49,416 nucleotides of DNA, from contig JAFLKM010000099.1 of assembly GCA_019163335.1 (NCBI GenBank), forward strand, positions 1-49,416, read 5' to 3'. The notes under the pieces are model-generated. The model had not been told where the DNA came from and did no database searches. It saw only the letters and a program-made list of their open reading frames with translations. The stretch's first letter is position 1; each line of letters begins with the position of its first letter. Made by a program: the position numbers and the translations under genes. This document shows, one piece after another, positions 36,906 to 49,416 of this stretch. Source of the DNA: Desulfobulbaceae bacterium (GTDB lineage Bacteria > Desulfobacterota > Desulfobulbia > Desulfobulbales > Desulfocapsaceae).

Positions 36906-37790
36906 TTACTTCATATCAACGGTATGTACCCAGTAGACAGCACCAATTTCAACTCCTTTTTCAACTCCATCATGCTTGAGCTTCCAATCCGCTTCACTGA
37001 GGGCGGCGAATCCCCACCAGCCGGCTCTGGGCATGGCATACGAGAAAATACCATTGGCATCCGTTTTAACCACCTGGGTGGAGTAGGGGTCGCTTGGGGC
37101 CTTGATTATTGCGGGATTTCCCGGCGATTCATTCAGGTATTCAATCTCAACCTCAGCTCCGGCTGCCGGTTTGCCTTTGACCAGTACCTGGCCGGTAAAG
37201 ATGTTGTTGGTCCATAATCCGTAGGGCCTGGTCAGTGGGATAATTTCGGTTTCAAGGCCAACCGGTTCGTCCCAGCCTTTCTCCAAACCAAGGGCATTCA
37301 CACAGACCTTGGTGTAGTGAACGATAAAAGAATCTTCGGCCGGCTCCCAGTAGGGGGTAGGCTCCACATAAAAAGTATAATCGCCCGGCCTCTTTATCTG
37401 ATACTCTGTCTTCCACATAGCGAAGTTTTTGTCTTGCCCGGGGGCTTTGCCCTTGGCTTCGGCGAGTGTGCTCAGCAGATCAATTTTCTTGCCACCGGTG
37501 AGAACCCCGAACTGCTTGGGTTTTTCCATGTCCATATAATGCATTTCAAAGGGATGGATGAACTTCACCTCAAGCTGCAGTTTTTTGCTGTCATCCTGGC
37601 TGATGATATCGTCAGATGGAACAATTACACCAAAATGGGCTTGTCCTGTGGACGACAGACCCAGGATGGAGGCAAGGACAGCAGTGCTGGTGAGTGCCTT
37701 GCCGATTATTTTCTTGTTTTTTTTACAAGAAAATAATCCGCGAAAGGCACTTGTCTCGTTTATCAGGGTAAGAATGTGTTTCAGGCGCAT
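36906..37790 (-). CDS. NikK-like periplasmic nickel-uptake protein (DUF4198)
   Basis: About 294 residues from the ATG at 37790 (GGAG upstream). An unusually long basic N-region precedes the hydrophobic signal segment (about 34-50), with cleavage near [12 protein letters not shown], so the mature protein again begins with His. The DUF4198 domain includes [38 protein letters not shown] and a C-terminal carboxypeptidase-regulatory-like beta-sandwich ([41 protein letters not shown]). This family is NikK of nickel ECF operons and is thought to bind or deliver nickel outside the membrane. It is the first gene of the operon. Confidence 0.85.
37704..37738. repeat. Perfect 14-bp inverted repeat inside the nikK-like signal region
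   Basis: Arms 37704-37717 and 37725-37738 are perfect inverted repeats with a seven-T loop (A in the transcript). They encode the [11 protein letters not shown] part of the basic N-region. A stable hairpin here could influence translation. Confidence 0.6.
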
Positions 37791-37951
37791 GGCAGTCTCC
37801 ATTTTTTGTTTTTTAGTTGTTGATTCCCATTCGTGATGAGCCTATCAAACCGAAAATCATACTTTTGCAAGAGATACTCCGTTGAAATATTTAGTCTTTT
37901 CAGCTTGTTGATGGCGTGTGTTTGAAAGCGTGGCCCATATTCTGAGGGCTT

Positions 37952-39567: not shown

Positions 39568-40665
39568 TTAATTTACCTTCTCCGTCCGCAATGTCGCCCT
39601 GCACAAGTAATGGAGGTTGAAGGGGTCGTGTTCCATTTCGGTGGTCTCGATCTGTTCAAAGCCGGCTTCTCTGAGCAGGGCTTCTGCTTTTTCCTGCCCC
39701 CACATCATTCCCAGTCCGGTTCCATTTTCATTCAGTCCCACCGGCAAACAGTGCATCAGGCTGACCGTATATAAAAAAGGGCCCATGGGGTGAGCCATAT
39801 TGTCGGCCTGATTTGACCTGGCTTTAATCTCGATCATCGAGAAAATTCCGCCTGGAGCCAGCATGTGCCTGATTCCCTTGAGAACTTTCAGGGGATGGCT
39901 TTGGTCATGGATGGCATCAAAGGCGCAGATATAATCAAAACGGCTGAAAAATTCACTTTTTCCGTCGATGTCTGCCGCATCTTGAAGCTGATACACTGCG
40001 TTGCCGATGCCGGCTTCCTTCGCCATCGCGGCCGCTTGCGTTATGGCCTCTCGGTGATTGTCGATGCCGACAAAGCTGCTCTTCGGGAAGGCCTTGGCCA
40101 TGAGATGCAGGGCTATACCATGTCCGCAACCGAGATCACAAACACGGATCCCTTGGGTGAGGCGGTCCCGCAGTTTCCCCTTGTCAACGGTGGGGAGAAA
40201 TTGGTCAATCAGCACGGTTTGGTGCTTTGCATCGGAGAGCTCGGCCATGAATTCCTGGAAGTCAGGGTATCTGGAAAAGGGAATGCCGGCCCCGGTTTGA
40301 AAGGCATGGTTGACGGATTCCATGGCGCATGCGGTGAGCAGAGGGATTTCCTGGGTATAGACTCCCATATTCATGCTTCCTCCCTTGCGGGTCAGGAAGG
40401 AAGCATGCTCGGGAGGCAGGAAATAGGTCTCTTCCCCCTTCTGATCCTTGAGCAATGCAATGATCTGCCCCGTTACCATGATTCCAAGCCATTCTTTGAG
40501 ATACCGGGGATGGAGTTTTGACGCGGAGGCGATTTCTGATACGGTGGCCGGTTTGTTCAGTTCATCAAGGATATCGAAGATCTGATGTATGTATCCTATG
40601 GCCATGGCAAGATTAAGGGCGCCATGGTTGAGGATCTCGGTCATTTTTTTTGCAAATTGACTCAT
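39568..40665 (-). CDS. SAM-dependent methyltransferase with N-terminal winged helix
   Basis: This 365-residue protein has an N-terminal winged-helix/dimerisation region (about 1-90; PATVSEIASASKLHPRYLKEWL) and a class I SAM domain. The SAM loop is VCDLGCGHGIALHLMA, followed by FVGIDNHREAI, the acidic FDYICAFDAIHDQSHP and LAPGGIFSMIEIKA. This arrangement is found in Rv2258c-like methyltransferases, whose substrates are unknown. The start overlaps the stop of the CMD gene by four bases, so the two proteins are made together and may act in one pathway. Confidence 0.87.
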   Translation of the reverse strand: MSQFAKKMTEILNHGALNLAMAIGYIHQIFDILDELNKPATVSEIASASKLHPRYLKEWLGIMVTGQIIALLKDQKGEETYFLPPEHASFLTRKGGSMNMGVYTQEIPLLTACAMESVNHAFQTGAGIPFSRYPDFQEFMAELSDAKHQTVLIDQFLPTVDKGKLRDRLTQGIRVCDLGCGHGIALHLMAKAFPKSSFVGIDNHREAITQAAAMAKEAGIGNAVYQLQDAADIDGKSEFFSRFDYICAFDAIHDQSHPLKVLKGIRHMLAPGGIFSMIEIKARSNQADNMAHPMGPFLYTVSLMHCLPVGLNENGTGLGMMWGQEKAEALLREAGFEQIETTEMEHDPFNLHYLCRATLRTEKVN

Positions 40666-41003
40666 TTACATTTTTTTGTTTTTGATGGTGCTCCAAGGAC
40701 TTCCTGGGCCCAGTACATGGCGGCCATGGTCTGGGGAAAGCCTATTGTGGAAACCAGGAGGAGCAGGGTGTGGGTGATCTCCTCGGGAGTTGCCCCTGCT
40801 TGCACTGCCCTGCGGGTATGGGAACTGACCGAGCCTTCTGACTGGCCGGCTGCGGCCGCCGCCAACTGGATCAGCTGGGAGGTTTTTTCATCGAGAGGTC
40901 CGGCCGTGCGCACGGTTGTTCCGAGATTTTCAACGGCGGTGAAGACCTCGGGAAATTGTTTCCTGACTTCCTTGTAAAATGATGGTTTGCTTTTTTCAGC
41001 CAT
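40662..41003 (-). CDS. Carboxymuconolactone decarboxylase (CMD) family protein without the CxxC pair
   Basis: This 113-residue all-helical protein has the CMD core LDEKTSQLIQLAAAAAGQSEG, then SVSSHTRRAVQAGATPEEITHTLLLL. In the peroxidase-type members (AhpD) the segment before the His holds a CxxC, but here it reads SVSSH, and the only Cys is near the C-terminus. It is therefore not an AhpD-like disulfide reductase. The His-containing subset has unknown roles. It is translationally coupled to the methyltransferase gene. Confidence 0.85.
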   Translation of the reverse strand: MAEKSKPSFYKEVRKQFPEVFTAVENLGTTVRTAGPLDEKTSQLIQLAAAAAGQSEGSVSSHTRRAVQAGATPEEITHTLLLLVSTIGFPQTMAAMYWAQEVLGAPSKTKKCK

Positions 41004-41877
41004 GGTGATCTCCTTGGAATATTTTTTAAGATAAGGAAAACATGAAGAAATTTTCAGTTTTCCATGATGGATACTAACGATCTTTCACTTGTATCCTCAT
41101 CAGTAACTATACTCAAATGGAAGATAAGCGGCAACGATTGTCATGTAAAGAGCAGATTCTGGGACATACTACTTGGAAAAGTCTCACTCTTGGTAATGAG
41201 TGCAAGGTGCTTTTAAGTGGCTGATGATAGCGGAAAACTTCTTTTATAAGTTCTTCAAGCGAGGATCGATATAGTCACTGACAAAATCCTTCGCTTTTGC
41301 GAAGAAGTGGTGTGTCAGGAATGGTGGCAGCCCATGGTTTTTATCTCGACCAGGAAAAGGAAGTCAATCTGCTTTGAAATATTTGAACGGAAAATGAATT
41401 GCATGCCCGATTTTGAACAGTCATGCAGTCGCCATCCAACACCTTGAATTTACATGTTTTGTCGTCTGTAATATTTGTGAGTCTGCCCGAGTGGTGTCCG
41501 ATTTTGAACAAATGGCTTTCCAGAAATAACGCCGGAATAGTGTGGCTCTTCTGGGTATGCTGGATAAATAGTTGAAATTAGATAGAAAATTTTTGTTTTA
41601 TCGATGGCACAAACATTGCTGATGTAAGATGAATCTTCTGCGCAATAATATGATTTGTTGCTAGGTAGGCTCAGCAAAATAAAATTGGAGAGGCTACTGG
41701 GTCATTTTGCAGGCAAAACCTCAAGAATTCAGCGGATCTTTTTCTCAAGTGGAACATTTTTCAACAGGCTCAAGTCTAACAATTATGCTTTGTATCTGAA
41801 CCCCTTTGGGTGGTAGGGGTGCTATGAGAATTAGAAGAAGCGATTACTTAGCACCTCAACCGTAACCAGGACAAAAA
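41004..41877. other. Long intergenic region without a convincing gene
   Basis: 874 bases hold no reading frame with recognisable features. A 75-codon minus-strand frame (41450-41677) has no clear ribosome binding site or family signal. Visible structure includes a two-part hairpin at 41278-41318 (CTGACA/TGTCAG outer, CTTCGC/GCGAAG inner) and a direct repeat CCGATTTTGAACA at 41407-41419 and 41498-41510. It probably marks the junction between core chromosome and the accessory stretch to the right. Confidence 0.5.
41407..41510. repeat. Pair of 13-base direct repeats CCGATTTTGAACA
   Basis: Identical copies at 41407-41419 and 41498-41510 are preceded by TGC or TGT and lie 91 bases apart. They could be subterminal repeats of a lost insertion sequence. 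There is no transposase nearby. Confidence 0.4.
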
Positions 41878-43593
41878 ATGAAAAAAAAACTTACAGGTCT
41901 TTTAGTTGTGGCACTTTGTGGGGTTCAAACACCGGCTTCTAGTAGTTTTTGCGAACACGGTTGCTCTAATTTGGTGGGACTGGTCTTTATCGATCACGGA
42001 ACGTTGAACCTTTCAACGACCACTGGGCAAACATTAGGTGCGTCATTAAGTGGGATTGGTACGGTAAATAAAACAGGAGCAGGCGAATACACCGTTTTGG
42101 CTGGCTCCAACGGAACGTTTGATTACACATTAAACGTCAATCAAGGTACATGGTCCGTTGTTACTGATACCGGGACCACGGCTGACTTTAATGCCCTGGT
42201 AATGGTAGATTCTTCTGCTCTCAACGTCTCAGCCGACAGCACAAATTTTAATAATGGCTTAACGTTATCACATGGGTATTTGGGTATATTACGCGGTGGC
42301 TTTGGTGTTACAGGGGTTTTGTCGGTGGGTTCCACGGTAAATACAATGAATGGAGTTGTGGCAACCAATACTATTACAGGGGATTTGAATATTGGGCCAT
42401 CAGGTACAGCAGAGTTCTTGATAGACTTTTCTCCAAGTACCGGCACATCTGATGACTATAAAATCGGCGGAGCCATAACTTCATCTGGTGCAACCGGAAT
42501 CGTACGTGTTTCTGATTTTAGAGTTGTCGGAGCCCCTACTGACATACAAACGATTGATTTCAAAGTTTTTGATGCCACTCCAGATGTTAATCCCGGGATA
42601 GCCTTCACTTCAACGGATAGCATAGTAAAATCAACGGCAAGCATGTACAGCCTGTCTGCATCGCCGTTGCAAGACGGCAGTTATACGCTTGACTGGCAGG
42701 GATATAACCCGGAAGCATTCAGGGGACAGGTCGCAACAGAAGCGGCATACGTGAATCAATTGACGACCAATAATATTTTGTTTGACCATGTTGGATTAGT
42801 TTCCCAGCAGCTACCTTCTGCGGAAAAAACCAGCGTTTGGGTTAAAGGCTATGGAAACATCGAGAAGCTTGAACTTTCACAAGGCATAAATACCCAGAAT
42901 AATTCGTGGGGTTCATTGCTTGGAGTGGACTTCCCCTTAGCTCAACTCGAGAATGGCTGGAACTTTCTGCCAACGGCTTATCTCGGTTATGCCGGCGGTT
43001 ACCAAGACTATAGCGGTGTGAATATGCGTCAAAACGGCGGCCAGGGCGGTATAATGGGAACCCTTTATAATGGTCATTTCACCACGTCCTTATTGGCCAA
43101 TGTTGGTGGATATGGAAATAATATGACCGTGGAAGGAGCAAAAGATAGTACAGACAACTGGTTTGCGGGCGGTGCCTCAAAGAGTAGTTATGATATTGAA
43201 TTGCCGAATGATTTCATTTTGCAACCCAATATGTTGGTCAGCTACAATGCCTTTGGAAGTCAAACCTGGGATTCCAGTTACGGCAGCACAAGTATGACGA
43301 CAGAGGCGCTTAATGGTCTGACTTTGGCACCTGGATTGAATCTGATTCTTAATCAAAAAACCTGGAGCGTCTATGCAACCACTCAGCTGATGTATAACAC
43401 AGTGAAAGGTATAGACGGAACTGTTGGAGATGTTAATTTGCCGACGGTCGAGATGGGTTCCACCACTTTCCACTGCGGATTGGGTGGTACAAATCAACTT
43501 AACGACAGACTGTCTTTGTACGGACAAATAGGCTTCAGCGACGGGGTAGAAAACGGAGTTGACTTCCAAGGTGGAATACGATGGGAATTCTAG
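41878..43593 (+). CDS. Autotransporter with short PATR-type passenger
   Basis: This 571-residue type V secreted protein has a signal peptide (1-22). The passenger (about 23-290) includes the passenger-associated repeat LSGIGTVNKTGAGEYTV followed by TLNVNQGTWSV, typical of beta-helix autotransporters. A linker with DHVGLVSQQLPSA precedes a C-terminal barrel (about 310-571, starting KTSVWVKGYGNIEKLEL) that ends GGIRWEF with an aromatic residue. No enzymatic domain is visible, so an adhesin-like role is possible. The gene is separated from its neighbours by long non-coding stretches, consistent with acquisition. Confidence 0.85.
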   Translation: MKKKLTGLLVVALCGVQTPASSSFCEHGCSNLVGLVFIDHGTLNLSTTTGQTLGASLSGIGTVNKTGAGEYTVLAGSNGTFDYTLNVNQGTWSVVTDTGTTADFNALVMVDSSALNVSADSTNFNNGLTLSHGYLGILRGGFGVTGVLSVGSTVNTMNGVVATNTITGDLNIGPSGTAEFLIDFSPSTGTSDDYKIGGAITSSGATGIVRVSDFRVVGAPTDIQTIDFKVFDATPDVNPGIAFTSTDSIVKSTASMYSLSASPLQDGSYTLDWQGYNPEAFRGQVATEAAYVNQLTTNNILFDHVGLVSQQLPSAEKTSVWVKGYGNIEKLELSQGINTQNNSWGSLLGVDFPLAQLENGWNFLPTAYLGYAGGYQDYSGVNMRQNGGQGGIMGTLYNGHFTTSLLANVGGYGNNMTVEGAKDSTDNWFAGGASKSSYDIELPNDFILQPNMLVSYNAFGSQTWDSSYGSTSMTTEALNGLTLAPGLNLILNQKTWSVYATTQLMYNTVKGIDGTVGDVNLPTVEMGSTTFHCGLGGTNQLNDRLSLYGQIGFSDGVENGVDFQGGIRWEF

Positions 43594-43894
43594 GAGTCTG
43601 TCGGACTTTCATGTTTTTTCTCATTATTCCGGCAGGCAGAATAGAGTAAGTGAATATCTCAAAAAAGTTAAGAGAGTTCAATAACGCGTTGTGTTAGTGA
43701 TTGTGTATAAAATGTTGATATAATATCAATCAGTTATGCATGCGGTGGCCATATGGGTGTAAAGTTTATCGCAGCTGACCAAGGTTTACAAGATGTGTTT
43801 CTAAGTTGTTTCCGAGCACTTACTTGGATCAGATCGTTTTCTGATCATTAGGGGTGCAATCTGCACTATAAAAAATCAACAAAGGAGAAGGGCT
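43594..43894. other. Intergenic region, 301 bases
   Basis: AT-rich spacer without a convincing reading frame. A small dyad GATCAG-N8-CTGATC lies near 43833-43852, upstream of the next gene. The region ends in a good AAAGGAG ribosome binding site. Confidence 0.4.
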
Positions 43895-44368
43895 ATGCGT
43901 TCTAAATTTTTCGTATTTGCAACCGTTATGACATTCTTATTGTCAGCATCGACGTTTGTTGTCGCACAAACGCAAGGAAAGAGTACCGATGCAGAACTGC
44001 AAAAATTCCAAGGTAGCTGGGTAATGGTCTCTGCTGAGATGGACGGGAAAAAGGTATCTGAAGAACACATTAAACAGAACAAAATCACCTTCGTCGGGAA
44101 CAAGGTCGAACTCTTCAGTCCTCATCAACATAAAGAGGTGATCGTTGCATCTATCACGAAACTGGATGTGACCAAGAACCCCAAGGAAATACACTGGGTC
44201 CGTGCTAATGGCCCCAGCGCAGGGAAAACCATAATTTCGATCTATGAATTTGAGGGTCCAGATCAATACAAGGCTAGCTTCGATCCTACGGCACTGAATG
44301 TGCCCAAAAAGTTTGGCACAGAAACGGGATCGGGACATATTTTGCACAATTGGACGCGATTAAAATAA
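43895..44368 (+). CDS. Exported TIGR03067-domain protein
   Basis: This 157-residue protein has a signal peptide (1-24, VVAQ). The mature part begins ELQKFQGSWVMVSAEMDGKKV and continues with KITFVGNKVELF, ending GSGHILHNWTRLK. The opening QGSW..VS.E.DGK pattern is that of TIGR03067, a small beta-barrel domain best known from planctomycetes. Its function is unknown. An unusual taxonomic association fits horizontal transfer, but this needs a search. AAAGGAG precedes the ATG. It lies 89 bases before the next gene and may share its transcript. Confidence 0.75.
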   Translation: MRSKFFVFATVMTFLLSASTFVVAQTQGKSTDAELQKFQGSWVMVSAEMDGKKVSEEHIKQNKITFVGNKVELFSPHQHKEVIVASITKLDVTKNPKEIHWVRANGPSAGKTIISIYEFEGPDQYKASFDPTALNVPKKFGTETGSGHILHNWTRLK

Positions 44369-44457
44369 CAGCCACGAACCAATGGGCTGTGCCTGTCAAC
44401 GACAACCAGGCGGAAAGTGTGATCGGCCCTTATGCCGCTTTCACAAGGAGTCAAACC

Positions 44458-45417
44458 ATGAATGCTCGCGACATTAAAATTCGTGGCCAGAATTTTTCTT
44501 TCGTTACACTCGCGCTGAGTGCAGCGATACTTTTTGGTTGCGCGACGACAATTCTTGCTAATCCTCCTGGTTTTGTTCGAGCATCAACATTGCCCGATCT
44601 GAGCGGATTGGCCTGGGTTAAGGATGACCTCTTTATCACCGTCCATGATGCCAAGCGCAATTCGGAGAAAAAATACTGGCCCCGGGTCAGCCTTGTGCAT
44701 CTTCCTGAATCGGAGCTCGAGGGAGTCACCTGGCAGTCTCTGGATTTAGAGTTTCCTGGACCTGATGGGCCCAGTAGCGATTTGGAAAGCGTTAGCCGTA
44801 TCCCGGGCGGAAGGGGATTTTTGTTTGCTGAAAGCGGGCAGGAAGGTGAAGGGGCTCGACGGATCTTCTTCGCTGTGTACGGTAACGATACGCTGAAGAT
44901 CGAGTCTCAAGTTCCTTGGCCTGTGCCCGTCGAGAACGTCGAGGCCACCGAGGTTTGCCAAGTTGGCCAGCAATTGGTGTATCTGTACGCGGAACGTGCG
45001 GAGGCCCTTGCAGCAACGAAAATCAAATGGGCCACGCTTTCATTGCATCCGTTGGAATTCGGACCATTCAAGGAAGTTACCTATGAAGGAGTCGATCCTG
45101 TCGGGAAGGGTGCTCGACCCATTGTAGCTTTGGCGGTTGATACCGATGGTTTTCTCTACAGCGCATCTGCCTATGATCCGGGAAACGATGATGGTCCGTT
45201 CCGAAGTGTGGCTTGGCGGATTGGAAAAATGATTGCTGATAAAAATGGCAATCCACTGGTTCAATTGGGTGAGAGTAAAAGGCTGGCGACCTTGGATGGA
45301 TTGAAAGTTGAGAGCATCACTGTGCGCGAATCAGAGAAGAGTGGCAAGCAAGTATTCGTAGGAACAGACGATGAGCACTACGGCGGCATAATTCGTCTGC
45401 TTCCAAGTGTGCCTTGA
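44458..45417 (+). CDS. Exported beta-propeller-like protein of unknown function
   Basis: This protein is 319 residues from the ATG at 44458 (AAGGAG upstream); the frame opens 36 codons earlier inside the previous gene's end. The N-terminus has a signal peptide with a possible lipobox LFGC (Cys28), or cleavage after ILA. Repeating segments LPDLSGLAWVKDDLFITVHD, LESVSRIPGGRGFLFAES, VENVEATEVCQVGQQLVY and AVDTDGFLYSASAYDPG resemble blades of SdiA-regulated or phytase-like esterase propellers. I do not recognise catalytic residues. It follows the TIGR03067 gene and precedes the phosphatase autotransporter. Confidence 0.7.
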   Translation: MNARDIKIRGQNFSFVTLALSAAILFGCATTILANPPGFVRASTLPDLSGLAWVKDDLFITVHDAKRNSEKKYWPRVSLVHLPESELEGVTWQSLDLEFPGPDGPSSDLESVSRIPGGRGFLFAESGQEGEGARRIFFAVYGNDTLKIESQVPWPVPVENVEATEVCQVGQQLVYLYAERAEALAATKIKWATLSLHPLEFGPFKEVTYEGVDPVGKGARPIVALAVDTDGFLYSASAYDPGNDDGPFRSVAWRIGKMIADKNGNPLVQLGESKRLATLDGLKVESITVRESEKSGKQVFVGTDDEHYGGIIRLLPSVP

Positions 45418-45546
45418 AGCAGCTAGACTTCGATGGATGCCCCTAACTCCACTAATGTAATTGTTCATTTAGGGCTCATATTGTAAAGAACTCAATCGAC
45501 AGAGTCTTTGAAAGATAGGTGGTTTGCGCCATAAAAAGAAGCATGC

Positions 45547-47529
45547 ATGTTTGACCTTAAGGTAGTTTTGACGAGAAACGTTTTGCTCGGTTCCATTGCT
45601 ATGGCAGCCTGTTTATCTAGCACAGCTGCATCGGCGCAGGAGGCGATTTTAACGCCCCTCCTTTCAACAGCTCTCAATTTCAGGGACCTTGCGGGAATAT
45701 CGGTAAGCAATGGCGGAACCGGCTTCGTCAACCCGACGAGCAACGACGGGGTGATGCGGACTGGGGTTTTTTATCGCAGCAATTCACTGAATAGTCTCAA
45801 CAACGCGGATTGGACCACACTTTCGGCGCTTCATATCTACCGCGACATCGACCTGCGAACACCTGACGAAATCGATGGCCCCCCAACGGCGCAAGATGTG
45901 GTGCCGGAAGGGGCTATATGGACCAATATCAATATTTATGGCACGCAAGAGCCGATACCCTCACCGTTTTGGGGCACTCCAGCGAATGCGGTTTCCTTCG
46001 TGCAGTCAGGATACCAGGCGTTCGTCACCGCTTCGGTTCAACGGGACGCGTTTCGCACGGTATTACTGACCTTGGCCGATGACACCGGGCCTGACCTATG
46101 GCACTGTGCTGGCGGCAAAGACCGTACCGGCTGGACGGCGGCCCTCCTGCAGAGCATAGCTGGTGTGCCGGATGCGACAATCATGCAGGACTGTCTGGCC
46201 ACCAACAGTTATATATCGGCCTTAGTAAACGCCACCAGAGAGTATCTTTTATCGGTGTATCCAGCATGGGACCCAGCGACCATTGATGCCCTTCTGGGCG
46301 TTCAGTCCGGCTATCTCCAGGCTGGTCTTGACCAGGTGATCGCCTCCTACGGGTCGATGTCTGCTTATTTGACGCAAGGATTGGGCCTCACACAGGCAGA
46401 TATCTACGTCTTACGCGCCAAAATGGTCTTCTACTCGGAGTTGCCCGGTCAGAGAGGGCTGACCGGCAATGCCGCCTCTGGTGCCGAGTTTTTGAACGCT
46501 TTGCAGAACTCACCCCTGTCGGGGCATTACACCGACTACAATTACTATCTCCAGTCAGCGATTGATCAGGGCACACTCGGGGGCGTCGAGACGCGGGTTG
46601 GCGGCCAAGTGCACGCCGATGCCGCCTCGTTTCTCCTGCGCCAGTCTCAACGGCTCGACGAGGCGATCGCCCCCTATACAAGCGGCCGTGATCTACCCCA
46701 AGGTCAGACCCGGATCTGGATAGCGGGAAATGGGGACAATTTTTCCACCAGTGGCCACGATGGCATAGCTCGCAGCACCGAGAACAGCGGCGGCTCGATC
46801 ATAGGTGGTACCTACCGGATCGGCAGTCAAGCTTTAACTAATATGGGGCTCGGCTATGACTGGGGTTCGGTCGAAAGCGCCGATGCCACCGCCACGGTCA
46901 ACACCGTTCTGGCTACCCTTGGTGGACGGTACGGATTTTCAGCTCTTGATGCCGGGCCTTTCATCGAGGGACGTGCGGATGCCGGCTGGGTGGACTATGA
47001 AAGTGAGCGCGTCTTTGGTGGGGGACTGGGTACCGCAACCGGTTCCACTACCGGTGCCGTGTATAGCGGTCAAGTTCGGGTTGGGAACGCTATTCGCCTG
47101 ATACCGTTGACTATTACTCCCCAGGTAGGAGTCCGGGTGACCGGGGTATCCATCGACGACTTCAATGAAGGCGGCAGTGACCTTGCTCTGAATGTCCATG
47201 GTGTTGACGAAACGATTTTTAGCCTTTTAGCCGATCTTGATTTTATTTTTAATCCAAAACCATTAGGGGAATGGACCATAGCGCCTGTCCTCACCCTCGG
47301 TTACGAGCGGATGCTAGACGACCCCCAGGTCGAAGGCGTTGCGACTCTGTACGGTTTCACCGTGCGTCAAAAATCAGCCTATGATAACCAGGATCTGATG
47401 AGGGCCAGTGTGGGGTTCTCGGCCGTTCAAGGCACTTTTACTGTAAGAGGCACAGTGAGCGGGGTGATTTCAGAGGAGACGAATAGCACCGGCGTTAGCG
47501 GACTTCTGTCACTTGCCTACAGTTTCTAG
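45547..47529 (+). CDS. Autotransporter with a tyrosine/lipid phosphatase passenger
   Basis: This 660-residue protein has a signal peptide (1-30, ASA-QE) and a passenger of the Y_phosphatase3 family (about 40-290). The family marks are LNFRDLAGI, GVMRTGVFYRSNSLNSL, YRDIDLRTPDEID and the P-loop HCAGGKDRTGW with Cys187 and Arg193. CX5R with Lys-Asp inside is the loop of MptpB/LipA-type phosphatases, which act on phosphotyrosine and phosphoinositides. A helical linker (about 300-385) leads to a C-terminal barrel (about 388-660) ending LLSLAYSF. The phosphatase is thus expected on the cell surface or released. All visible catalytic residues are intact. No ribosome binding site is obvious at the ATG. 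Confidence 0.88.
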   Translation: MFDLKVVLTRNVLLGSIAMAACLSSTAASAQEAILTPLLSTALNFRDLAGISVSNGGTGFVNPTSNDGVMRTGVFYRSNSLNSLNNADWTTLSALHIYRDIDLRTPDEIDGPPTAQDVVPEGAIWTNINIYGTQEPIPSPFWGTPANAVSFVQSGYQAFVTASVQRDAFRTVLLTLADDTGPDLWHCAGGKDRTGWTAALLQSIAGVPDATIMQDCLATNSYISALVNATREYLLSVYPAWDPATIDALLGVQSGYLQAGLDQVIASYGSMSAYLTQGLGLTQADIYVLRAKMVFYSELPGQRGLTGNAASGAEFLNALQNSPLSGHYTDYNYYLQSAIDQGTLGGVETRVGGQVHADAASFLLRQSQRLDEAIAPYTSGRDLPQGQTRIWIAGNGDNFSTSGHDGIARSTENSGGSIIGGTYRIGSQALTNMGLGYDWGSVESADATATVNTVLATLGGRYGFSALDAGPFIEGRADAGWVDYESERVFGGGLGTATGSTTGAVYSGQVRVGNAIRLIPLTITPQVGVRVTGVSIDDFNEGGSDLALNVHGVDETIFSLLADLDFIFNPKPLGEWTIAPVLTLGYERMLDDPQVEGVATLYGFTVRQKSAYDNQDLMRASVGFSAVQGTFTVRGTVSGVISEETNSTGVSGLLSLAYSF

Positions 47530-47781
47530 GGGCTCTACATTGCAACGGAGACGAAACCATCAATGTCTAACCCGCTTAGACTGAAGGGGCAAGCCCATTC
47601 CCGCCACCAAACTTGGCTACCTCTAGTGGCTCCATTAGGGCGATCATTGACAGGTGGTTTTGCAATCGCTTCTCATCCTGGTTGATTATGTCAATGAAAA
47701 TAGATTGTAAAAGAGCGTTCAGAAAAGCTCTGTGTGTTTTTTGAGCTACAGATGCACAGCAGTAGTTTTACTCATCCCCAG

Positions 47782-48846
47782 CTACAATGAGTTTTCGGTG
47801 GGAGTGGATACCGCCAATTCCAGAATAGAACGGCCACAGGCTGTTGGGATTATCTGAGTAATGGCAAAGCCGGTTCGATGGGCCAGCCCGCGATACCCCT
47901 CCAAATCCCGCTCAGCGCCATTGACCAAAATCATGAAATTTACATCCAGCCAGGGAGCGATAGAGAATGCGTCGCCTTCAGAAAGCATATGCTCGATAAG
48001 CAGCAATCGCTTATGTTTGTAAGGTGTTGATGTCATGGCAGTTCTGACGGTACGCAATATCTGCAAGGCCTGTGCTTCAGGCCAGTTGTGAATCACATTC
48101 TTCAAAACATAAAGGTCTCCATGAGCTGGGACTGCCGTGAAGAAATCTCCGTCAATGCGCTGTAATCGATCACGAATATCGTTTTCCGGAAAAGAATCAG
48201 CGTCTGCGGGAGATTCCAAATCAAACAGAGTTCCGTTGAGATGCAGATTTATCTTTAGCACTGCGTGAAGAAATGTTCCTCGTCCGCAACCGATGTCAAT
48301 GACGTGCTGAAATTGGGAAAATTCGTATGCCTGAGCAATGACACTATTCTCGTCAAAAGAAAGATTCGTCATGGCTTGATGGAACACGCGGAGCTGCTCG
48401 GGCTTATCTGCCAGATACTGCAAAGAGCCTTGTTCAAAGGCAGGAGAGAAACGTTCTCCATTCCCTTCTTGCAGGAATTCGACCAAATGCCCCCAGGGCC
48501 GATAGCGGTAGGGCGCGCCGTTGAGTCTGGCCGCAGCCCGTTGACTATATGGATGGTCGGAACAAAGCAATTGACCAAAATCAGTCAAGGTATAGGTACC
48601 AGCATGACTTACTCGGACAAACCCCAACTGAGCGGCACAACGCAGAAAACGTTTCAAGGCTGATGGCTGGATCCTGGCCTGTTGCGCCAATTGAACCGCC
48701 GTTTGAGGCGCTTCCTGAAGTTGATCGGCAATGCCCAATTCAGCAAAGGCATAGGTGATGCTGGTCTGCCAGTTACCGTAAATAAAGCCGCGCAACCGCT
48801 GAATGGCGGGGGTTATGTTATTTTCTTCTTGTGACGACTCGTTCAT
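47782..48846 (-). CDS. O-methyltransferase, acetylserotonin-OMT-like family
   Basis: This 354-residue protein has an N-terminal dimerisation winged helix (about 15-100; TSITYAFAELGIADQLQ, SALKRFLRCAAQLGFV) and a class I SAM domain with VIDIGCGRGTFLHAVL, FDLESPADADSF and IDGDFFTAVPAHGDLYVLKNVIHNW. The conserved catalytic-type His of this family sits in the KNVIHNW segment. Members methylate hydroxyls of aromatic or polyketide-like small molecules. The substrate is unknown. It stands alone, facing the accessory region. Confidence 0.87.
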   Translation of the reverse strand: MNESSQEENNITPAIQRLRGFIYGNWQTSITYAFAELGIADQLQEAPQTAVQLAQQARIQPSALKRFLRCAAQLGFVRVSHAGTYTLTDFGQLLCSDHPYSQRAAARLNGAPYRYRPWGHLVEFLQEGNGERFSPAFEQGSLQYLADKPEQLRVFHQAMTNLSFDENSVIAQAYEFSQFQHVIDIGCGRGTFLHAVLKINLHLNGTLFDLESPADADSFPENDIRDRLQRIDGDFFTAVPAHGDLYVLKNVIHNWPEAQALQILRTVRTAMTSTPYKHKRLLLIEHMLSEGDAFSIAPWLDVNFMILVNGAERDLEGYRGLAHRTGFAITQIIPTACGRSILELAVSTPTENSL

Positions 48847-49416
48847 ATCTGTTTACTTCTGGTTCCACACCAATGACAGGCTCTGATTGATTAAAAGGTG
48901 CCTTGACAAATGAGGTTCTTTGGTCAAAATCAGGGCATACGAAAATTCTTACTACTGGTATATAGTTGATATTCTCATGATAAAATTTTGAGAATAACGA
49001 AGAGTTTGGGCAATAAGATCATTTTGAAAAAGGCTCCAAAAAGAGCATTTTATACCTTGACAATGAACTAAAATTTTTTTCGCGATTTTTCTTGAAAGAT
49101 CATTTAATTTCAATGAGATACTGTATGGGTCGCGTTGAATTTTACTCGTACCGGCAGATGGTTCCAGAGCAAAAACAACTCATGGCTCCATTAAAGAATA
49201 TACTTCCACTCACACCACCACTCCGATCCAGGTGCAATAAACCATTGGCAAGGAATACCGAAGAGCTGCTCAATATTTTAACCTATTACCACCTGCATGG
49301 GTTTTCCTCTGGACGTCTCTTGCTCGCTTCTGGCTTTTGACACAGTGCTTCAACACCCCATCGTTTCATTACTGTGCTCAATGCGCGTCCCCGCCCCCAA
49401 GCACCTTATAGAGCGT
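48847..49416. other. Window-edge region, mostly non-coding
   Basis: 570 bases of AT-rich sequence contain only the uncertain frame at 49092-49340. No terminator, tRNA or repeat is evident. A second frame is open from about 49320 to the window end, so a gene disrupted by a frameshift is possible. Confidence 0.4.
49092..49340 (+). pseudogene. Possible N-terminal fragment of an IS4-like transposase
   Basis: This 82-codon frame contains TPPLRSRCNKPLARNTEELL and NILTYYHLHGFSSGRLLL. The run of a CN.PL motif followed by a (F/Y)HL..(S)SGR.LL motif recalls the N-terminal region of some IS4-family transposases. The frame then stops, while another frame stays open to the window edge, as if a frameshift had broken the gene. 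The match is from memory and weak; it could also be a chance frame. Confidence 0.3.

Follow-up and report, generated by a model that had tools for sequence, protein, structure and literature searches.

Tyrosine-phosphatase autotransporters are, as a kind, already catalogued. The available part of a 2018 survey lists tyrosine phosphatases (IPR029021) among the phosphatase/hydrolase autotransporters (PHATs) and describes these as alpha-helical passengers without an autochaperone (PMC5767081). In the same part, EstA is given as the only alpha-helical passenger with a solved structure, and an alpha-type autochaperone is speculated upon (PMC5767081). Among the characterised autotransporters in the available part of another paper, the acid-phosphatase autotransporter MapA is the lone phosphatase (PMC9289746). 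The literature covered, mostly without subscription papers and in part as excerpts, contained no characterised tyrosine-phosphatase autotransporter and none in relatives of Desulfobulbus.

The gene described here adds one such protein in an informative evolutionary setting. It is located in a stretch of 49,416 bases (the window) of a Desulfobulbaceae genome, and we consider it likely that it encodes an EstA-like class Va autotransporter, i.e. one with a globular passenger and no beta-helix, which would display an intact CX5R phosphatase of the MptpB/LipA type and which is accessory and horizontally transferred. With EstA (3kvn) it shares the order of globular passenger, linker and barrel, the barrel match being weak, but the passenger of EstA is a GDSL esterase and that of the window protein a CX5R phosphatase. 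MptpB (1ywf) and Listeria LipA share the Y_phosphatase3-type sequence and the GKDRTG loop; however, MptpB has no autotransporter barrel (the chain 1ywf comprises 296 residues) and, to our knowledge, neither has LipA, which was encountered only as a match in the plasmid collection. PF13350, the phosphatase family concerned, presumably falls under IPR029021. Like the tyrosine-phosphatase subgroup of the PHATs, the window protein combines a passenger of the tyrosine-phosphatase superfamily with an autotransporter barrel, the passenger being presumably alpha-helical and without autochaperone, a likeness that would hold at the level of IPR029021, the one entry given in the available part of the survey (PMC5767081). 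Regarding the autochaperone, PF13350 fills residues 39-294, and Pfam alone lists no other passenger family. MapA, as far as described in the available part of its source, is comparable as a phosphatase exported as an autotransporter (PMC9289746). The first-pass annotation had called the export of a phosphatase by a type V mechanism unexpected; the type V route is a natural inference from the sequence, but the surprise is smaller than claimed, because the available parts of both papers list phosphatase autotransporters (PMC5767081; PMC9289746). Its label of an apparently free-living anaerobe fits the position of the window genome in the same order as a Desulfobulbus sp. record. The gene and its parts are as follows.

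45547..47529, plus strand: phosphatase autotransporter gene, an uninterrupted open reading frame with ATG start and TAG stop, 660 aa
45547..45639, plus strand: predicted Sec signal peptide, residues 1-31, from by-eye reading and hydropathy, with a putative cut near ASA-Q
45661..46428, plus strand: Y_phosphatase3 domain (PF13350), the passenger, residues 39-294, from Pfam
46102..46131, plus strand: CX5R active-site loop HCAGGKDRTG, residues 186-195, with C187, K191, D192 and R193 invariant in the four fused proteins
46456..46713, plus strand: linker, residues 304-389, lowest dN/dS in the protein (0.079), containing a motif similar to the LSGEVYA-type pre-barrel linker
46714..47526, plus strand: autotransporter beta-barrel domain, residues 390-660, with C-terminal Phe, from Pfam, hhalign and a weak match of the family profile to EstA 3kvn

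By its sequence, the 660-aa frame is one gene that encodes a predicted signal peptide, an intact Y_phosphatase3 domain, a linker and an autotransporter barrel. This is the arrangement that the first-pass annotation had read from the letters, and it was borne out by profiles, recurrence and purifying selection, the signal peptide again by eye. An hmmscan of the protein against Pfam at E<=0.001 returned exactly two families, PF13350 at 39-294 (E=1e-54) and PF03797 at 390-628 (E=7.9e-27), and both of these domains, for which the annotation had proposed a Pfam check, scored far above the curated cut-offs (186.5 against 22.2 bits and 95 against 26 bits, respectively); the barrel family thus stands at the C-terminus, as in class Va autotransporters. 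NCBIfam gave no match for the protein at E<=0.001. In the window genome, a profile search found five PF03797 matches and a single PF13350 match, which is the 660-aa protein itself. The putative leader shows a basic start, a hydrophobic stretch and ASA-Q, judged by eye and hydropathy without a dedicated predictor, and similar leaders occur in the related proteins of six other genomes (G482, G483, G487, G002, G527 and G226). A C-terminal aromatic residue is the usual outer-membrane signal; here Phe660 is the last residue, and it is invariant in all four fused proteins known from the search described below. AlphaFold2 was run on only two sequences, those of the window and of its nearest copy (L014), with a mean pLDDT of 28.0, and statements on the fold are taken from sequence profiles.

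The passenger carries the active-site motif with the catalytic cysteine at position 187, and both the loop and the terminal Phe are as first annotated. Asp102 is invariant in the four fused proteins as well. The proposed relatedness to MptpB holds at the sequence level, since the family profile matched 1ywf with E=6.3e-21; it also matched 8dhi, a TYR_PHOSPHATASE_2 domain protein, at 1e-19. Past the leader, the catalytic cysteine is the only one in the protein of G483, and the remaining fused proteins have one or two more; there is therefore no conserved cysteine pair that would hinder passage.

The linker is the most conserved piece of the protein. In G482, G483 and G487 its identity to the window sequence amounts to 92, 90 and 62%, while the passenger reaches 88, 80 and 53% and the barrel 88, 80 and 37%. 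The proteins of the window and of G482 are 88% identical over the full length with an overall dN/dS of 0.21, which divides into 0.36 for the passenger, 0.08 for the linker and 0.20 for the barrel. The pair of barrel-less relatives in G002 and G527 has dN 0.114 and dS 0.259, a ratio of about 0.44. These sequence comparisons indicate that the constraint on the enzyme is moderate only, because linker and barrel have lower values than the passenger, and the pair without barrel lies higher still. The linker motif VGGQVHADAASFLLRQ is situated about 309 residues from the C-terminus and has a counterpart, LSGEVYASTQSMLLDD, at 319 in the autotransporter L076, the one protein matched by the motif pattern among 11 other autotransporters scanned. 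Furthermore, in an hhalign comparison with 10 other autotransporters from the window and related genomes, linker plus barrel aligned (98.9%, E=1.1e-17) over 307 columns, from linker position 31 to the last residue. The family profile also matched the barrel of EstA (3kvn) weakly at 386-548 (E=0.0025). Barrels of class Va autotransporters have 12 strands; peaks of alternating hydropathy, 21 raw and some of them overlapping in the barrel versus 9 in the phosphatase, are too crude for a strand count.

From this architecture we infer the export route, the surface exposure and the enzymatic activity. The protein would be exported by Sec, its barrel inserted in the outer membrane by the BAM machinery and the linker threaded through the barrel pore, so that the phosphatase would fold outside, anchored to the outer membrane, and could remove phosphate from extracellular or envelope phospho-compounds, while some relatives appear to keep only an exported, barrel-less phosphatase. 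A surface-exposed phosphatase function is likely. As to the substrates, our guess would be small phospho-esters including inositol phosphates in the first place, followed by envelope phospholipid or LPS phosphates and finally by phosphoproteins.

Close relatives with leader and phosphatase but without barrel are present in G002, a member of the same genus, in G527 of the same family and in G226 from another part of the phylum (rpoB figure 60.6%). They are 56.9-62.4% identical over the aligned part, have a similar active site and end within about 15 residues past the phosphatase domain. Downstream of the G002 gene there is no linker or barrel remnant, and for G527 and G226 the search for such remnants gave only chance-level matches (E 0.19-0.66). 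Because these close relatives do without a barrel, surface display is apparently not essential to the phosphatase everywhere. They also lend some substance to another reading, in which the barrel is an anchor only and the phosphatase remains in the periplasm, or faces it, and works on the envelope of its own cell, a role also conceivable for the exported barrel-less relatives; the marginal family-profile match of TpbA (4r0s, E=0.044), which is a periplasmic protein, points in the same direction. However, a similar linker is found in another autotransporter, and no part of the protein is more constrained, which would be expected for a role in translocation; we regard a mere anchor as rather improbable.

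In a phylogenetic tree the four fused and three barrel-less proteins form one clade (100/100) in which both types are intermixed. The tree, whose root is unsure, took a subset of the fetched PF13350 loci and comprised 35 of 37 chosen sequences (L035 and L037 were left out since they did not match the motif pattern; L008 and L060 are the same gene). Both the best tree and the bootstrap range require two changes of the fused or barrel-less label, with 0% of 200 bootstrap trees needing just one; the starred branches force only one. The barrel was thus probably gained or lost more than once. Linker plus barrel of G487 score 283 bits against those of the window, with 18 bits for the next-best other frame among the loci compared, and because the two are clearly homologous, an ancestral fusion with later losses appears to be favoured over two gains, the root being unsure.

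The survey of architectures pairing both domains, which the first-pass annotation had proposed, covered 257 genomes drawn for the class, and all kin it listed belong to the same order. With a profile of the four fused proteins, the full architecture was found in four genomes, i.e. the window genome (G000), G482, G483 and G487, the last being a single contig of 5,081,812 bases. Two further genomes, G002 and G527, match in the passenger only (6-305 and 6-301), three more show weak passenger matches, and 248 of the 257 gave no match at E<=1e-15. A contig scan detected a copy that is 88% identical over its full length in L014, whose record bears the title MAG: Desulfobulbus sp. isolate GS12 483, and G482 has the same gene sequence. 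Within the genus the fusion occurs in only one of 17 genomes, that of the window, 11 of the 17 being at least 90% complete. In the phylum sample, good-match frames longer than 500 aa were found besides the window frame only in G409 (755 and 543 aa), and these are extended at the N-terminus, not by a barrel. The Proteobacteria were surveyed through plasmids, where none of 162 records matched 80% of the protein at a single place and linker plus barrel had no match at all in the collection, which is weak evidence of absence outside the phylum. The phosphatase alone matched 119 plasmid records. Among five plasmid matches with little or no annotation, four have open reading frames of 187-316 aa that end 98-111 residues past the motif, and the fifth (L105) has no frame with the active-site motif pattern; H6 has an open reading frame of 403 aa. 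A scan of viral contigs for relatives of the phosphatase autotransporter found none. The combination of PF13350 and PF03797 is genuine and uncommon, and it has been transferred from one bacterial family to another.

The nearest copy of the gene, in G482, belongs to another family. It differs by a dS of 0.30, whereas RpoB of the two genomes (about 1,140 residues compared) is 74% identical with saturated synonymous sites; hence, the gene was transferred horizontally between families. The DNA comparison delimits the following shared stretch.

45457..47568, plus strand: stretch common to the window and G482, 89% DNA identity

In the 16 kb around the G482 copy, nothing else of window positions 40001-49416 has a match. 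The similarity to G483, which is given by a contig of 4.7 kb, amounts to 82% and extends over 45510-47613. At the 3' end, G482 departs at TCAATGTCT and G483 continues to about 47613, so the ends of similarity are not identical in all copies.

Within the gene, the synonymous divergence between the window and G482 is uneven, with 0.16 for the passenger, 0.55 for the linker and 0.36 for the barrel (p=3e-5 for passenger versus rest, from a single test on a single pair). Counted per 60 codons, third-position differences number 4-8 over codons 61-300 and 11-22 over codons 301-660, with 13 in codons 1-60. Window positions 45727-46446 (codons 61-300) are thus closer to G482 at third positions than linker and barrel, which is a sign of mosaic descent. 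Against G483 there is no such step (0.68, 0.65 and 0.67). The pattern suggests that the passenger part was recently exchanged. A more far-reaching version, which we put forward tentatively and consider unlikely as a whole, holds that the modules of this mobile autotransporter are separable: the passenger would have been swapped recently between families, with the break close to where passenger and linker meet, barrels would have been lost in sister lineages, and the unusually conserved linker would be the alpha-type autochaperone hypothesised in the available part of the survey (PMC5767081).

The gene is part of a larger segment that two members of the genus do not have.

41153..49380, no strand: insertion carrying the gene, 8,228 bases, absent in the same-genus genomes G003 and G005, edges accurate to within a few tens of bases

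Colinearity of the window with G003 and G005 extends to approximately 41,152; these two genomes stay colinear for over 8 kb past that point, and the window rejoins them only in its last 37 bases (94.6% to G003 and 87% to G005). The similarity of G003 ends at position 2331 of L107 and restarts at 2391, leaving about 60 bases in place of the insertion. On the right, the evidence is a contig overlap of 55 bases: the first 55 bases of contig C62 of the window genome are the last 55 of the window, and then 5.9 kb are colinear with G003 at 90%. Because both flanks, C62 included, are colinear with G003 and G005, the segment from about 41,153 to 49,380 is an insertion absent from these genomes. It has a G+C content of 0.479 (window, 0.488), and when its ends were compared by short words, no terminal repeats were revealed. 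Besides the phosphatase autotransporter, it encodes a second autotransporter, a TIGR03067 protein, an unassigned protein and an O-methyltransferase. The second autotransporter (41878-43593, plus strand, 571 aa with WEF at the C-terminus) is encoded 2 kb upstream; its barrel obtained 44 bits in the whole-genome profile search, and hmmscan lists no family for it even at E<=1. An integron cassette was considered and dropped after a by-eye look for attC-like sites, and the idea of a shared operon was given up because the neighbours of the gene in G482 differ from those in the window. Scans for promoters and terminators stayed at chance level. The gene is accessory.

This accessory, horizontally spread distribution, together with the sequence kinship to MptpB, would also suit an extracellular effector directed against eukaryotic neighbours, predators or other bacteria, which is compatible with the surface-displayed phosphatase preferred here. 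Nevertheless, PF13350 matches were obtained in 36 of the 257 genomes of the order and in 69 of 395 genomes of the phylum, many of them short and partial, and in 6 genomes of a varied control set of 14, with Caulobacter, Synechococcus, Lactococcus and Methanosarcina among them, so that archaea are represented as well. Because it is so widespread in order, phylum and controls, PF13350 is no marker of host interaction, and family membership is no argument for a host-directed role. Moreover, the gene neighbours are not common to the window and G482. An effector function has a small probability in our view, and a host-directed role is not favoured.

The transfer itself would be an artefact if the contig or its last 8 kb had been misbinned or misjoined from a Desulfobulbus-like genome, as could be imagined from the closest gene copy being in another family and from 8.2 kb around the gene having no counterpart in the nearest genus members. 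However, the core genes on the window contig (lysS-, hisD- and leuB-like, names from Pfam) match G003 of the same genus over 11.2 of 12 kb at 87% DNA identity, because of which the contig is assigned to its genus, and on either side of the insertion the sequence is colinear with G003 and G005 if the last 37 bases of the window and the C62 overlap are included; such an error is very improbable. That a sequencing or assembly artefact joined two genes, a danger named in the first-pass annotation and conceivable for a window assembly of 103 contigs and a G482 record titled MAG, is practically dismissed, as it is contradicted by the same junction recurring in G482, G483 and G487 besides the window, thus in four genomes including a single-contig one, and by purifying selection on both halves.

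One phosphatase in four fused and three barrel-less forms makes up a compact natural set, which allows testing what surface display adds to the enzyme and how a globular, beta-helix-free enzyme crosses the outer membrane without the known autochaperone. The outer-membrane passage of such passengers is a gap named in the available part of the survey (PMC5767081). The phosphatase autotransporter spreads as an accessory gene among environmental bacteria and is not a fixed virulence trait.

Several smaller observations were made at these loci. In G487 (L083, 10509-12519), two adjoining, overlapping genes of the phage-integrase family are located 1.3-3.3 kb upstream of the fused gene. The barrel-less version in L016 (7578-8562) and L085 (6914-7895) is 88% identical at the DNA level between two genera, with the similarity ending near the gene's edges, and this version may be mobile too. 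Near the right edge of the insertion, window positions 48908-49036 hold a dispersed repeat of about 130 bp with many copies in the genus, mostly 76-83% identical; it has no match in Rfam, which otherwise gave one meaningless sub-threshold match. Finally, a palindromic repeat of about 80 bp (37693-37772) near the 5' end of the reverse-strand open reading frame 36906-37802 occurs in many copies, 84-92% identical, both in genomes of the genus and at other places in the window genome, and looks like a small dispersed element.
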